A stretch of DNA of 64,000 nucleotides from Cystobacter ferrugineus (GTDB taxonomy: Bacteria; Myxococcota; Myxococcia; Myxococcales; Myxococcaceae), in assembly GCF_001887355.1 (NCBI RefSeq), contig NZ_MPIN01000023.1, forward strand, positions 1 to 64,000, read 5' to 3'. The translations under genes and the position numbers were made by a program. Under the pieces are notes generated by a model that saw only the letters and a program-made list of their open reading frames with translations, searched no databases and was not told where the DNA came from. Below, piece by piece: positions 58,238-64,000 of this stretch. Each line of letters opens with the position of its first letter. The first letter of the stretch is position 1.

Positions 58238-58522
58238 CTAACGCTGGGGCAGGCTCTCACCGGAGTCGACGGCACCGTCCGGGTTGGGCGCGTTGGCGGG
58301 AGCGGCCGGGGTGCCCGGGTTGCTGAGTGGATCGCCGTCGATGCCATTGGGCGCATTGGGGATGTTGCGGTCCGGGTTCGGATCCAGCCCCGAGCCTCCG
58401 ATGCCTGGAGTCGAGGTGGGCGTGGGTGGCTCCGTGTCCCGGGTGGCCGTGGTCGCGCATCCCGAGCCGAGTGCCACCGCACCCGTGAGCAGACCCGCCA
58501 GCAGCAGTTTCGTCTTCGTCAT
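58238..58522 (-). CDS. Small lipoprotein
   Basis: The 94-residue protein has a lipoprotein signal (MTKTKLLLAGLLTGAVALGSGC) followed by a low-complexity, Pro/Asn/Gly/Asp-rich tail. The ATG at 58522 has GGGAGGGAAGG upstream. No function can be assigned. Confidence 0.75.
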   Translation of the reverse strand: MTKTKLLLAGLLTGAVALGSGCATTATRDTEPPTPTSTPGIGGSGLDPNPDRNIPNAPNGIDGDPLSNPGTPAAPANAPNPDGAVDSGESLPQR

Positions 58523-58636
58523 GGCCTTCCCTCCCATGGTGGGATGTTAAATGTGGGGCGTTGCCGAGCCACGGACAGCGAGTGCTTGCCTGGTGGGCCG
58601 CTGCTGACCTCGCGCATCCCCTATCATCGAACCCTC

Positions 58637-59743
58637 ATGCGCCTTCGCTCTCCGCTCATCTGGTTCGCAGTCGCGGCAGTCCTGCTCCCGCTGACGGTGG
58701 GCGCCGAGCCCCCACCGGTGTCCCTGGAGGAGGCACTCCGCCAATCCCCCACCGTTGTGCTCGGCCAGGTCGAGAGCATGGACCGCCGCGGCGAGCGTCA
58801 ACTCTTCACCCTCCAGGTGGAGCATGTCGCGCGGGGTGAGCTGCCCGATGTCATCACCTTCGACGCCGAGCCCCCCAAGGGGGAGCGCCCTTTCATTGGA
58901 CTCGGGACGAGGATGATCGCGTTCCTCGAGCCAACCACCCAGGAACAACCTCGCTTCCGGCTCGCCCTCGGTGGCGCCGCAGCGCTGAGGGTCATCAGGG
59001 ACAAGGTCCATGCCACGTTCTCCGTGGAGGAAGGCCCGTGGTTACAACTGTGCGGCGCCTCGCCCCCAGACGAGCGCAGGGCATGCAGAGTACCGCTCGA
59101 CCGGTTCTTGAGCGAGGCGGGGCTGCGCCCCTTCACCCCGTCCAGAGAAGCAATCTTCCGCGTCCTCCAACCCCCACAATGCAAGCCCTGTAACCTGGAG
59201 GGACAGTTGCACAAGAGCGATGCTCCGGATTTGAAGGATTGTGGGACCGCACCGGAGCAGGGCACCACCCCCCATATCCTTCAGTGCGTGCGAGAGTCCC
59301 TGAAGGGACGTACCCCCTTCCTGGTACGTGTGCCTCGCCACGATGGGGTGGATTTATTCGCCTTGGACACCTTCGTGTCGGACGGGACCCATTTCCGTGA
59401 AATATCTTTTTATCCCAGCATGGGAGTAGGACCTCGGTGCTCGGCCCTGGTGAGTCAGCGGCGCTGCGAATCACTCGTGATACGCGAATCGGACACGCCA
59501 TGGCTCCAATGCGAGACTCCAGGTAAGCACGAAGAACTTTGCTCCCAGAGCCGACGTATCGACGCGCTCGGGCCCGCCGAGAAGGTGTCCCGGTTGAGCT
59601 GCGACCCCGAAGGCCGGCGAGGCATGTGGCTCTGTGACGTGCTCCCAGCCGGAACCAGGTCGGGCAAGCACACCCCTCGCCATGACGGTCCGGACTTCAT
59701 CTGCTCCACCCGGTCCAAGCGGATCTTCTGTCGCGAGGAATGA
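58637..59743 (+). CDS. Secreted protein of unknown function
   Basis: I do not recognise this 368-residue protein. It has a signal peptide (MRLRSPLIWFAVAAVLLPLTVGA-E), an N-terminal domain that may be an OB-like beta domain (VVLGQVESMDRRGERQLFTLQVEHVARGELPDVITFDA) and a Cys-rich C-terminal half with about a dozen Cys. It converges with the DUF3396 gene, 23 nt apart. Base composition looks slightly less GC-rich toward the 3' half than in its neighbours. Confidence 0.65.
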   Translation: MRLRSPLIWFAVAAVLLPLTVGAEPPPVSLEEALRQSPTVVLGQVESMDRRGERQLFTLQVEHVARGELPDVITFDAEPPKGERPFIGLGTRMIAFLEPTTQEQPRFRLALGGAAALRVIRDKVHATFSVEEGPWLQLCGASPPDERRACRVPLDRFLSEAGLRPFTPSREAIFRVLQPPQCKPCNLEGQLHKSDAPDLKDCGTAPEQGTTPHILQCVRESLKGRTPFLVRVPRHDGVDLFALDTFVSDGTHFREISFYPSMGVGPRCSALVSQRRCESLVIRESDTPWLQCETPGKHEELCSQSRRIDALGPAEKVSRLSCDPEGRRGMWLCDVLPAGTRSGKHTPRHDGPDFICSTRSKRIFCREE

Positions 59744-59766: not shown

Positions 59767-60570
59767 TCAATCCAGGAAGCGCCGTGACCACCTCCGGACC
59801 TCCTCCTGGGTAAAACCCATGGCGTTATAGAGGTTCCCCTGCTCCCCAGTCGTTTCAGTCAAGGGGAGTGGTTCCAACCAGGGTTCGAGCAGCCGTGCGA
59901 ATTCACGGTACGTTGGCAGATCGTGTCCCGAGGAACGGATGGACTCATCCGCACGGCGCAAGGGCCAATACAAGCGGAGCGCGAATCCAACATGACCCGA
60001 GGCGAATCGAAGCTGGGAAGCCATCTCCAAGGCAAGCTCTCGCACCTTCGTGGGCCCATGCTCATGCAGGTATTCGGTGGGAAGCGTCGCGAACAGGAGG
60101 CTCACTGTATCACGCGAGGGCGTGCGCCAGGGAATTCGAGCCTGGTAATGGAATTCATAGCCGTTGCGACTGCGAGGACCTCCATCCAAGATCACTCGCG
60201 TCGCGTAACCCCGCTTCTCCATCCGATCGGCGATGTCTTCGGGAAGTTCTTCAATGAACCGGAACGGACGGTCGGACGAGAGAAGTCGACGAACGTAGCT
60301 CCATCGCTCCACAGTCAAGGCATCGCCTTCGTCGTCATTAGTGAATGAATGTCGAATGGTTTTAGGACCCTCCCCCACCCCGCGCATGTAGACCTCGACA
60401 GCGTGGCGCACCCCCTCTGCGATCTCGGGGTGATCGTGCGGAAGGTAGAAGGCGAAGCGGATCACGTCCCGCGCGAGCAACTCCCTTCTCAGTCGGGGCA
60501 GTTCCCCACTCCACAAGCGATGACGCACGGGAGGCAGGCACCGATAGCGAATACGAGGAGGGCGAATCAT
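59767..60570 (-). CDS. DUF3396 (type VI immunity family) protein, short form
   Basis: The 267-residue protein has FAFYLPHDHPEIAEGVRHAVEVY, YQARIPWRTPSRDTVSLLFATLPTEYLHEHGP and a C-terminal TQEEVRRWSRRFLD, which match what I remember of myxobacterial DUF3396/type VI immunity proteins. These are usually longer (roughly 340 residues); here a central block after GHVGFALRL seems missing, so it may be internally deleted. It starts 12 nt downstream of the xylulokinase fragment and has no toxin beside it, so it is an orphan immunity candidate. Confidence 0.65.
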   Translation of the reverse strand: MIRPPRIRYRCLPPVRHRLWSGELPRLRRELLARDVIRFAFYLPHDHPEIAEGVRHAVEVYMRGVGEGPKTIRHSFTNDDEGDALTVERWSYVRRLLSSDRPFRFIEELPEDIADRMEKRGYATRVILDGGPRSRNGYEFHYQARIPWRTPSRDTVSLLFATLPTEYLHEHGPTKVRELALEMASQLRFASGHVGFALRLYWPLRRADESIRSSGHDLPTYREFARLLEPWLEPLPLTETTGEQGNLYNAMGFTQEEVRRWSRRFLD

Positions 60571-60582
60571 TCAACCCCTCTC

Positions 60583-60808
60583 TCACCGCTCCAGCCGGAG
60601 GGCGGGATACAAGCGGCGCCAGCGGGCGTACTCCTCGGCGTAGCGGGGAACGAGCGCGGCGTCAGGCTCCACCACCCGGGCCACCGGCGGCGGCACGGGG
60701 AGCGTGAATGGATCCTCTCCCGTCGCCGCGAGCCGTCCCAGCCGCGCCGCTCCGAACGCGCCTCCGAAATCGCCCTCGGCATGCACATCCAGCGGCCGGT
60801 CGAGCACG
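60583..60808 (-). pseudogene. Fragment of the xylulokinase 3' end
   Basis: About 222 bp (60587-60808) match 62776-62997 of the intact xylulokinase with 8 differences by my count, about 96 percent identity. It encodes the final ~75 residues (DRPLDVHAEGDFGGAFGAARLGRL... RRLYPALRLER) with an intact frame and stop, but no start domain. Same orientation as the intact gene. Confidence 0.9.
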
Positions 60809-60814
60809 AATGTC

Positions 60815-61447
60815 TCAGGGTGCACCCGAGTTGGCGGATGCCATTTCGCTGAGCGCGATCCGTAGAGACTGGAAGCTCCGAGACAGATTCCGAGAAGGAA
60901 CCATGTGCTCGCCGACCGCTCGGGCCACCTCTATCTTCCGCAGCCCGGTCTTGAAATAACCTGCGTTCTTGAGCACATGCTCAAAGGCTTCCCATGTACC
61001 GCCCGCGATACCATCGGGATCGCGGTATCTGGCTTGAGCGGGAACGGTTGGCTTTACCCGCGGATATGCAGTTCGGACAGCATCCCAGTCTCCGAAATAC
61101 CAAGCCTCAAGTTCCTCGATCGCAACTCGATTGACGACAGCGTAGACTTTCTTCTTGGGTGATGACCTCGTGGAGAGGCCAGCCTCCAAGGCGAGACTTT
61201 CAAGCTTGCGCTTGAGCTCAACACAGTCGTCATCATCGCGGTCCACCACCACCACGATACGCCACGTCTCTGGGAGCCAGCTCGCATAACCCCGCAAGCG
61301 CTCCGGAAGTCGCATCAACAATTCATCCTTGCATTGGTGAGGGTAGACCTCGAATGAAGTGTCGCCGAGCATTCGTGGCAGAACAAGCCGCAGGGCCGCC
61401 TCCATAGAGGGTTCCTCAACAAACACCTCTACATGTTCGACGCTCAT
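60815..61447 (-). CDS. DUF4276/TOPRIM-like protein, partner of the ATPase
   Basis: The 210-residue protein starts with a TOPRIM-like Glu motif ([22 protein letters not shown]) and has an acidic DxD cluster ([21 protein letters not shown]), followed by [21 protein letters not shown], a segment I associate with DUF4276. Its start overlaps the ATPase stop by ATGA (61444-61447). TOPRIM nuclease partners of ABC-type ATPases are known in OLD-like, Gabija, PARIS and RloAB/AbiL systems. It ends 6 nt from the xylulokinase fragment. Confidence 0.75.
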
Positions 61448-62697
61448 CCCCGTCCCCCCTTTTTCCGCGGGGCCCCCGCGTTTACCAGGGGATCGCCGAC
61501 ACCAAACCTGCCCTCGAGCCATAGATGACCCATGGACGCACCAGCCTCGACAAACTGGGGCACCCCTTGGATGTCTGACGCCCGAATGGCCTGGGAATAA
61601 CCTTGCTCGTTGCGGTAGAGGACACGGACCTCCTCCGGCTTCAAGGCATTGAGGAAGAACGGCGAATGCGTGGTCACCAGGAGCTGTGAACGCTCGGTTG
61701 CGGCCCTGCATTCCTCCGCGAGTTCGGGCAGAAGGCGCGGATGCAGGAAGTTCTCGGGCTCCTCGATGCCCACGAACTGAGGAGGCTCGGGATCATGCAG
61801 CACCGTGAGGTAGGCGAGTAGCTTGAGCGTTCCATCCGATGCAAAGCGCGACAGCACCGGGCGCTCGAAAGGCGCATCCTTTATCTGCAGAAGCAGACGG
61901 CCGTCCGGCATGGGTTCCGCCAATACCTTCTCAAGGCGCGGTACCCGGCGTTGGAGGATCGCGAAGATCTGTTCCAGATGACGCGGATGTTGTTCCTTGA
62001 GGTACTGGATGACGTTCGGAAGGTTATCGCCAGTCTTGCTGAGGCGCTCCTGGGGCCCAGCTTCGGGTTGCCCACGGGTGTCGTCGATCGACAGGTAGGA
62101 GACGTACCAATCGGTGATGAACTCACGGAGCGCAGCGACCCGTGGATGCGCGGCAAACTGACCCAGCGTGTTGACGGCAATCAGGTCGGGCGACCGTAGC
62201 GGTGTCTCCTTGCGTTGCTCTTTCTCATCAGGAAGTTCGCCGCTAATGGCGTACCCCTGTCCATTCTTGTAGTCGAGAAAACGAAAGGGAGCACCATAGG
62301 ACCCTCGTTTCCATTGCAACCACTCCTCGGCAACGAACGGACCCTTGGCTCCTTCATCAAGCGCCAGGTGGTATGTGATGACGGGAAGTCCAGGGCGCTC
62401 CCTGTACTTGATTTCGATGACCACGGGGCCGTCCTGCCCGCGCGTCTTCAACTCCCTGGCTCGTCCACGGCGGTCCCATGCGTGGCGCAACCCGAATTGG
62501 AAGCACTCGGAGAGAAAATTGAAGACATCAAAGACGGTCGACTTGCCGCTGCCATTCGGCCCGAGGAGAGCAGTGAGTGGAGTGACATCCTTGAACTCAA
62601 CAGCCTTGAGGGCGCGGTAGTTCTCGACCCGCAGATACTCGATGCGTGGCGGCCCACTAGAACGGGGCTGCATTTTGGACTTGGTCTTACCAGCCAT
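61444..62697 (-). CDS. AAA/ABC-type ATPase of a two-gene defence-like module
   Basis: The 417-residue cytoplasmic ATPase has RecF/OLD-like features: [34 protein letters not shown] (Walker A), an ABC signature-like [19 protein letters not shown], Walker [14 protein letters not shown] and switch His in [12 protein letters not shown] helical insert separates them. It would act as a sensor/motor for the TOPRIM-like partner. Codon use is visibly less GC-rich than in xylulokinase and the polyol genes, which fits acquisition by transfer. Confidence 0.85.
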
Positions 62698-62771: not shown

Positions 62772-64000
62772 TCAACGCTCCTGCCGGAGCGCAGGATAGA
62801 GGCGGCGCCAGCGGGCGTACTCCTCGGCGTAGCGGGGAACGAGCGCGGCGTCAGGCTCCACCACCCGGGCCACCGGCGGCGGCACGGCGAGCGTGAATGG
62901 ATCCTCCCCCGTCGCCGCGAGCCGTCCCAGCCGCGCCGCTCCGAACGCGCCTCCGAAATCGCCCTCGGCATGCACATCCAACGGCCGGTCGAGCACGCTC
63001 GCGAGGATCTTCAACCAGAGGGGTGAGCGCGAGCCCCCACCCACCGCCGACGCCCGCTCCACCCGCGTCCCCGCATCGGCCAGCACCCGCATGCAGTCCG
63101 CGACGGCATACGCCACGCCCTCCATCACCGCTTGCGTCAGCGCCTCGCGCCCATCCCCGTGCGCCAGTCCCACGAAGGCCCCGCGCGCTCCGGCGTCGTT
63201 GTGTGGCGTGCGCTCCCCCGACAGGTAGGGAAGGAACTTCACCGGCGACGGCGCCCGCACGCGCTCCCCCACCGCGGCGATGAGCGAGGGGGCCGGCTCG
63301 CCCAGCAGCGCCGACAGCCACTCCAGGCTCGCCGCTGCGGACAGGATGACGCCCATCTGATGCCACGTGCGAGGCACCGCGTGGCAGAACGCATGCACCG
63401 CACCCTCGGTGTTCGGAGAGAAGCGCGCATTGGAGACGAACAGCACCCCCGAGGTGCCCAGCGACACGAACGCCGCCCCGGGCTTCACCGCGCCAATGCC
63501 CACCGCGCTCGCCGCGTTGTCCCCTCCCCCTCCCGCCACCACCGGAGCACGGTGCATGCCCCAGCGCCGCGCGAGCTCGGGCCGCAGCCGGCCAGACGAC
63601 TCCGAGCCCTCCACCAGGCGCGGCATGTGCTCGCGCGTGAGCCCCGTGGCCGAGAGCAGCGCATCGGACCAGTCCCGCTTCGCCACGTCGAGCCACAGCG
63701 TTCCCGCCGCGTCCGACATCTCGGAGACGTGGTCGCCGATGAGGAACAGCCGCAGGTAGTCCTTGGGCAGCAGCACCTTGCGCGTCCTCGCGAACACGTC
63801 CGGCTCGTGCTCGGCGACCCAGAGCAGCTTCGGCGCGGTGAAGCCCGGCATGGCGAGGTTGCCGGAAATCTCTCGCGAGCGCGGGCAGCGCTCCTCCAGC
63901 AGGCGGCACTCGGCCTCCGAGCGTCCGTCGTTCCAGAGGATGGCCGGGCGCAGCGGCTTGTCATCCGCTCCGAGCAGCACCGCGCCATGCATCTGTCCCG
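62772..64000 (-). CDS. xylB: Xylulokinase, 5' end beyond the window
   Basis: The FGGY kinase (about 410 residues visible) begins within the conserved GQMHGAVLL motif at the window edge and contains AILWNDGRSEAECRLLE, GGGGDNAASAVGIGAVKPGAAFVSLGTSGVLF and a C-terminal ATPase domain (VGGGSRSPLWLKILASVLDRPLDV). It phosphorylates D-xylulose, made from D-arabitol by polyol dehydrogenases. With the mtl operon 4.6 kb away on the other strand it completes a Pseudomonas-like mtl gene set (MtlY). The last ~75 codons are duplicated at 60583-60808. Confidence 0.93.
   Translation of the reverse strand, partial: GQMHGAVLLGADDKPLRPAILWNDGRSEAECRLLEERCPRSREISGNLAMPGFTAPKLLWVAEHEPDVFARTRKVLLPKDYLRLFLIGDHVSEMSDAAGTLWLDVAKRDWSDALLSATGLTREHMPRLVEGSESSGRLRPELARRWGMHRAPVVAGGGGDNAASAVGIGAVKPGAAFVSLGTSGVLFVSNARFSPNTEGAVHAFCHAVPRTWHQMGVILSAAASLEWLSALLGEPAPSLIAAVGERVRAPSPVKFLPYLSGERTPHNDAGARGAFVGLAHGDGREALTQAVMEGVAYAVADCMRVLADAGTRVERASAVGGGSRSPLWLKILASVLDRPLDVHAEGDFGGAFGAARLGRLAATGEDPFTLAVPPPVARVVEPDAALVPRYAEEYARWRRLYPALRQER

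Follow-up and report, generated by a model that had tools for sequence, protein, structure and literature searches.

An ABC ATPase/DUF4276 gene pair of Cystobacter ferrugineus, its predicted TOPRIM nuclease and its relatives among type I restriction genes

In RloA/RloB an ATPase is accompanied by a small TOPRIM-like partner, and in Septu the partner, PtuB, is an HNH nuclease. OLD-type ABC ATPases paired with separate nucleases form a known class, the TOPRIM-linked members of which include PARIS (PMC12839542), where the ABC ATPase and the TOPRIM nuclease are encoded by two genes (PMC10568477). AriA of PARIS senses phage triggers such as Ocr (PMC12839542), and AriB cuts tRNAs once AriA has sensed the trigger (PMC12409363, PMC12839542). 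WonAB also consists of an ABC ATPase and a separate nuclease, WonB being of the PD-(D/E)xK type, and aborts infection by stopping translation (PMC12137116). In the OLD protein BpOLD, the two metals are held by E400, D455 and D457 and by E404, T506 and E508, and K562 also takes part in catalysis (PMC6755086). A number of candidate systems carry the name HEC, for Hma-embedded candidate, and several of these, including HEC-06, are reported to have antiviral activity (PMC12988326); HEC-05 and HEC-06 are also named elsewhere (PMC11411939). HEC-01 is listed among the systems of Desulfovibrio piger in a passage that gives no mechanism (PMC12724379). A literature search, which did not extend to bioRxiv preprints (the one naming the HECs included), found no report of a defence-activity test of HEC-01 and no paper on DUF4276.

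Here we describe an ATPase/DUF4276 gene pair from a stretch of 64,000 nucleotides of C. ferrugineus DNA (contig NZ_MPIN01000023.1, positions 1 to 64,000), referred to below as the window. What is new is the assignment of DUF4276 to the TOPRIM nucleases, with predicted catalytic residues, as suggested by structural models, and a recurrent type I restriction context, as judged from sequence matches around the relatives.

The gene pair and its assignment to HEC-01

The first-pass annotation had placed an ATPase gene and a gene for a small partner at 60815-62697, and both were found there on the minus strand. The features of the pair, in window coordinates, are as follows.

61444..62697, minus strand: ABC ATPase, OLD/AriA-like, 417 aa (PADLOC HEC-01A); from Pfam, PADLOC, conservation and model
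60815..61447, minus strand: DUF4276 protein, 210 aa, predicted TOPRIM nuclease (PADLOC HEC-01B); from Pfam, PADLOC, fold and conservation
61444..61447, minus strand: ATPase stop and DUF4276 start overlapping as ATGA, with presumed translational coupling; from sequence
DUF4276 protein, candidate site residues: E11 (with E12 and E16), D69xD71, E112xE114 and K171; from conservation

A mechanical list of open reading frames gave a 298-aa ORF (60815-61711) for the smaller gene, which is over-extended, as the alignment of relatives begins at the ATG at 61447 and leaves 210 aa. With this short start the protein matched PF14103 in Pfam at E 6e-28, in agreement with its earlier description as DUF4276-like; its sole further Pfam match was sub-threshold (E 0.19), and NCBIfam gave no match at E up to 1. 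The ATPase matched AAA_21 (E 1.6e-31) and AAA_15 (E 1.2e-15) in Pfam, and its NCBIfam matches, among the best 25 of 40 families, were all under the family cut-offs. Because the stop and start overlap as ATGA, translational coupling of the two genes, likewise proposed on first pass, is plausible; the same 4-nt overlap (-4) is the commonest spacing among relatives (48/80), and 11/80 have a spacing of -1. The ratio dN/dS among three congeners was 0.036-0.053 for the ATPase gene and 0.076-0.088 for the DUF4276 gene, and from these low values the pair is real and both genes are under purifying selection.

In PADLOC, the ATPase matched the HEC-01A model PDLC04182 at E 3.6e-164 (residues 17-402 of 417) and the DUF4276 protein matched the HEC-01B model PDLC04202 at E 7e-88; the ten PADLOC models that the latter matched at E up to 1 were all HEC-01. 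Among the best 25 of 142 families matched by the ATPase, AriA (E 6.7e-31) and mad3 (E 1.2e-21) lay far below HEC-01A. Since both proteins match HEC-01 models far above any others among the matches listed, and the two-gene layout is the same, the pair on these profile matches belongs to the catalogued candidate HEC-01 (PADLOC-DB) and the system is not new. Set against the HEC-01 naming, the window copy stands alone, and 9/80 relatives lie among type I restriction genes. The labels of two further models in PADLOC-DB appear to be swapped, PDLC04144 ('HEC-01B') matching the ATPase and PDLC04143 ('HEC-01A') matching DUF4276.

In a sequence search of the PDB the ATPase had PtuA (5.3e-16) and the OLD-family endonuclease 6p74 (1.8e-13) as its best relatives, with AriA at 6.8e-5, and by sequence matches the protein also resembles RecF/SMC weakly. 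Its AlphaFold2 model (pLDDT 87.4) matched PtuA, OLD and SMC heads in Foldseek, with E down to 5.1e-14, and gave Z 19.6-22.1 in the best 50 structural matches listed, SMC heads coming first. Retron entries among the Foldseek matches name an HNH partner. In 54 sequences K52, S287-D288-G289, E313 and H344 are invariant or at least 90% conserved, and these we take to be the Walker A lysine, a signature-like SDG, the Walker B glutamate (in EEPEN) and the H-loop histidine, respectively.

Fold and candidate active site of the DUF4276 protein

The Glu and DxD motifs that had been picked out in the small partner correspond to E11, D69 and D71, which are invariant, as are E112 and E114, in 81 aligned DUF4276 sequences; E16 is conserved in 0.92 and K171 in 0.96 of 85 sequences. 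An AlphaFold2 model made from the 81-sequence alignment (pLDDT 88.7, pTM 0.85) has strands at residues 5-10, 31-36, 62-69 and 104-109 that alternate with helices in the order β-α-β-α-β-α-β, with E11 closing strand 5-10 and D69xD71 closing strand 62-69, as in TOPRIM. When the model was compared with 350,542 chains in Foldseek, no match fell under E 0.001, the top one being a weak match (E 0.029) to the C-terminal region of the Burkholderia pseudomallei OLD protein. VIA-align, run on Foldseek's top 1000, placed OLD C-termini at ranks 1, 3, 4 and 5 (Z 9.9-10.5, 169-172 residues aligned), rank 1 being 6nk8 (Z 10.5) and ranks 3-5 Xanthomonas campestris OLD entries (Z 9.9-10.2). Rank 2 was 2p62, a hypothetical Pyrococcus protein (Z 10.2), and rank 6 was 8ux9_A from the PARIS complex (Z 9.0, with 165 residues aligned), taken as AriB because chain B of 8ux9 is named AriA; the match that followed, succinyl-CoA synthetase, had Z 8.1. 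Structure prediction, the check that had been suggested for the TOPRIM fold, thus favours it at the level of a model.

In a profile comparison by hhalign, DUF4276 aligned with 17 OLD TOPRIM sequences from the window's own order with a score of 30.7 and E 6.5e-4, at a probability of only 27%, in a register that places E11 on the OLD TOPRIM Glu and D69xD71 on the DxD. The best of 40 column shuffles scored 18.4 and the reversed profile 13.6, and the positive control, RloB against OLD TOPRIM, scored 38.7 (probability 72%). A DUF4435 profile of three sequences did not align by hhalign even with OLD TOPRIM and was hence uninformative, and a PDB sequence search with the DUF4276 profile returned chance matches alone.

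The likeness to the Class 2 OLD proteins (BpOLD, XccOLD) takes in the TOPRIM domain together with the helical C-terminal region (169-172 residues) and extends to the order of the key residues: Glu and DxD, then another acidic pair and finally a C-terminal Lys. E11/E16, D69xD71, E112xE114 and K171 keep the order of the BpOLD site, a mapping that past the Glu and the DxD was read from order and spacing, with no superposition; two differences are that ExE replaces the TxE of BpOLD and that the second Glu is shifted by one. The DUF4276 protein is predicted here to be a TOPRIM nuclease whose two-metal site, of the OLD type, is formed by E11/E16, D69xD71 and E112xE114, with K171 as a helper.

The first-pass annotation had drawn a parallel with PARIS, RloAB and split OLD systems, which is apt as regards the mechanism of PARIS and of a split OLD but does not extend to membership of PARIS or RloAB by sequence. 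With PARIS the pair shares the two-gene ATPase/TOPRIM layout and the alignment of the DUF4276 model to 8ux9_A; it differs in the size of the small protein (210 aa against 306 residues in 8ux9_A). The ATPase does match AriA (6.7e-31), but its match to HEC-01A (3.6e-164) is far stronger. Membership of PARIS was rejected, as DUF4276 has no AriA/AriB-type profile match and the fused AriAB model PDLC02981 fails at E up to 1. Three RloB sequences carry EGxKTE, DxD and ExW in the order of EEPSME, DRD and EAW of DUF4276; RloAB was nevertheless set aside, there being no RloB (PF13707) match at E up to 1 and no in-register hhalign alignment with 22 RloB sequences. Septu is similar in that PtuA is among the best matches of the ATPase and an ABC ATPase is joined by a separate small nuclease, yet here the partner is DUF4276 and not the HNH nuclease PtuB. 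The partner nucleases of WonAB and PtuAB are not TOPRIM, unlike the predicted DUF4276 nuclease. The Class 2 OLD proteins are one polypeptide, whereas the ATPase and DUF4276 are encoded by separate genes, and a fused OLD of any of Classes 1-3 was rejected on the same ground. Gabija was excluded as well, no GajB helicase lying beside the ATPase, the neighbours of the pair being an FGGY kinase gene and, past DUF4276, a TsiV gene.

Relatives, restriction genes and the local insertion site

A genome scan gave 179 relatives, from which 80 loci were kept, with 53-69% identity over the best segment. Their hosts belong to the Pseudomonadota, Planctomycetota, Chloroflexota, Acidobacteriota and Latescibacterota, among others, and include a cyanobacterium and Methanosarcina. 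The ATPase gene, partial at some contig ends, lies directly upstream of the DUF4276 gene on the same strand in 79/80 loci, and at the sole exception 142 bp of contig precede the DUF4276 gene. Distance matrices of the two proteins are correlated (r 0.81, n=79), with 0/999 permutations reaching this value and a maximum of 0.38 among them. By these comparisons the ATPase and DUF4276 genes form one overlapping, co-inherited unit. Within the family Myxococcaceae, a match was found in 10/96 genomes (10/83 of those complete and clean enough), and 3/4 genomes of the genus carry the pair. The tree of relatives mixes phyla, the Pseudomonadota alone requiring 14 changes. A relative was present in 8/72,556 plasmid records and in 0/50,697 phage records at E 1e-5; IMG/VR yielded two loci, both with the ATPase upstream. 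Among the incomplete matches, the decayed DUF4276 remnant of G044 lacks the first TOPRIM motif and has no ATPase within 13 kb, the match in G090 covers residues 3-102 only, and one of two sites in G011, situated at the end of a contig, contains an internal TGA.

Some further occurrences were noted. Plasmid pSYSM of the model cyanobacterium Synechocystis sp. PCC 6803 (L177, 6799-8540) has a distantly related pair, with 39% identity for the ATPase and 26% for DUF4276, near a phosphorothioation-associated gene, and this strain would be a convenient genetic test system. In pGLE121P3 the pair lies among conjugation genes. The source genome itself has two separate OLD-like TOPRIM matches (C1:1204531-1204722 and C1:159786-159977), in long open frames of 699 and 869 aa.

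The first-pass annotation had made its proposal hinge on occurrence of the pair among defence genes, and matches in the flanks of the relatives show it to recur among type I restriction genes. At least one such gene, as found by single-query searches, was present in the examined flanks of 17/80 loci, hsdR in 16 of them, and the remaining 63/80, some being short contigs, had none in the examined flanks. The nearest upstream neighbour matched a type I specificity subunit in 11/72 loci and the nearest downstream neighbour a type I restriction subunit in 7/74 scanned (of 79). Nine of the 80 loci have hsdM or hsdS on one side of the pair and hsdR on the other, all on one strand and in some cases with intervening genes; at these embedded loci the hsd genes and the pair may form single operons. 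On the Meiothermus plasmid pMtWR-220, for example, one strand carries genes in the order DNA methyltransferase, DUF262, hsdS, DUF4433, macro domain, ATPase, DUF4276 and hsdR. The density of hsdR is about 16 bearing loci per Mb (80 loci, 1.02 Mb in total), against a background of about 0.12 per Mb (27 HSDR_N matches, a few genes being counted in more than one piece, across about 217 Mb from 39 Myxococcota genomes), a comparison of order of magnitude in which the background was taken from Myxococcota instead of the phyla that the 80 loci represent, and by a different method. The embedded state requires eight changes for the nine loci, as counted on a quick tree with SH-aLRT support only and no shuffle control, on which gain and loss are inseparable. 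The window copy itself has no adjoining restriction gene, its neighbours being those listed here.

62772..62997, minus strand: 3' end of the FGGY sugar-kinase gene (FGGY_N, FGGY_C in Pfam), right copy of a 226-bp direct repeat
60583..60808, minus strand: duplicated 226-bp kinase 3' end, left copy; 217/226 identical
59767..60570, minus strand: TsiV-type immunity gene; PF11876 (E 1.9e-13) and PADLOC PDC-M20B (E 1.1e-75)

The pair had been thought to lie on acquired DNA, and its GC content of 0.592, compared with 0.684 for the window, agrees with this (0.24% of equal-sized sliding windows, the pair's own included, are as low), as does congener G003, where the flanking kinase is present and the pair absent. 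The resident kinase gene runs from 62772 past 64000, and the left copy of the repeat of its 3' end sits 6 bp downstream of the DUF4276 stop, where it would represent the left boundary scar of the insertion. In congener G001 the pair is accompanied by a 48-bp relic (79% identical) of the repeat at the same place; beyond it come an ORF of 299 aa, a TsiV gene of greater length and, after these, the shared downstream genes. Congener G002 has the kinase, the pair and then a small gene (58238-58537) labelled lipoprotein-like by eye and with no Pfam match; the 226-bp repeat is absent. Site-specific integration with att sites was rejected, the repeat being the 3' end of a protein gene and G002 having the pair without it. 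In addition, no tRNA gene was found in the window, and neither of the two genes flanking the pair is an integrase in Pfam. The 226-bp repeat thus looks like a scar left by recombination, the presumed route of insertion. Nine more loci of the family have a kinase match. Five of them carry a mannitol-dehydrogenase homologue downstream, three of the five a PfkB kinase homologue as well, at varying distance; neither was found at the other four. From these varying contents across congeners and family loci, the kinase site has held different cargo in different strains.

The TsiV gene of the window is without an internal stretch found in the 347-aa copy of G001, and the 299-aa ORF that precedes TsiV there (L020, 4668-5567; no Pfam match) has no counterpart in the window; for these reasons the gene looks like an orphan, degenerating immunity gene. 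At the same locus of G002, a 119-bp repeat (L021, 9431-9549 and 10435-10553; 97% identical) flanks a short insert with a DUF697 gene and takes in the 3' end of the lipoprotein-like gene next to it, a second insertion with a duplicated native gene end. In another genus, the 3' region of the kinase gene is flanked by the two copies of a 150-bp direct repeat (G007; L166, 500-649 and 2390-2539; 89% identical). A 399-aa ORF on the plus strand of the window (58544-59743), with no Pfam match above cut-off, is shared with G001 and was not found in the examined stretches of G002 and G003.

Possible mode of action

We hypothesize that the pair is probably a two-gene, split OLD/PARIS-like immune system acting by abortive infection, in which the ATPase would detect infection and then license the TOPRIM nuclease, and we hold this with moderate confidence. 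By analogy with PARIS and WonAB, the ATPase would be the sensor and scaffold and DUF4276 the effector. The ATPase may keep the DUF4276 nuclease idle as a scaffold and may sense an infection signal, perhaps a phage anti-restriction protein, a trigger suggested by analogy from the place of the pair among restriction genes. ATP-dependent activation of the ATPase would then license the nuclease, which would cut host nucleic acid and stop growth before phage release; tRNA is slightly favoured over DNA as the substrate, since the split ATPase/TOPRIM layout is that of PARIS. The first-pass view of a candidate phage-defence system is thus supported as an interpretation, with the system already known to PADLOC as candidate HEC-01.

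Alternatively, the pair may be a split OLD directed at DNA, a metal-dependent DUF4276 degrading or nicking phage or host DNA while the ATPase controls access to the substrate. In favour of this, the closest folds are the C-termini of Class 2 OLD proteins, and these cleave DNA in vitro (PMC6755086). DUF4276 also offers candidate positions for each of the two metals and has the conserved K171, and DNA is the target of the type I restriction systems in which the pair is embedded. However, AriB, the nearest split partner, cuts tRNA (PMC12409363), and the second Glu of DUF4276 is at +5 (E16), not at +4 as in BpOLD (E400 to E404); we regard a DNA target of this kind as possible, though rather unlikely.

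The nearby TsiV-type immunity gene in the source genome and in G001, and the 299-aa ORF without a Pfam match that lies between the pair and TsiV in G001, could also be read to mean that the pair is a toxin-antitoxin-like or inter-bacterial competition module, carried as cargo at a toxin/immunity site and not mainly directed against phage. Such a role seems improbable to us, given that G002 has no TsiV match within 15 kb after the pair and that the recurring neighbour in other phyla, as seen among the nearest neighbours and in searches for type I genes, is type I restriction; a DUF4276 remnant without the ATPase does exist (G044), but it is decayed. A housekeeping DNA-repair pair without a defence role, comparable to RecF/RecR, would fit the weak likeness of the ABC ATPase to RecF/SMC and the occurrence of TOPRIM in RecR, but is highly improbable and was rejected on the patchy spread (10/96 family genomes, 3/4 in the genus), the mixing of phyla in the tree (14 changes for the Pseudomonadota), and the presence of the pair on plasmids (8/72,556 records) and among restriction genes.

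If the pair does act as an abortive-infection system, it is interesting to speculate that HEC-01 serves as a back-up alarm for restriction. Its repeated recruitment to type I restriction loci would then be due to an ATPase that senses phage anti-restriction proteins or a disabled restriction complex and fires DUF4276, a separate kind of TOPRIM nuclease. This would be a parallel to PARIS that is independent of it, found in archaea and many bacterial phyla; we offer it tentatively and with some doubt. In other respects the copy in the window is an unremarkable, well-maintained representative of a candidate system already catalogued. For DUF4276, a domain of unknown function, the predictions made here provide a likely catalytic mechanism and residues to mutate, and, were the anti-restriction alarm to prove true, the guarding of restriction by an ATPase/TOPRIM pair would have arisen or spread well beyond PARIS.
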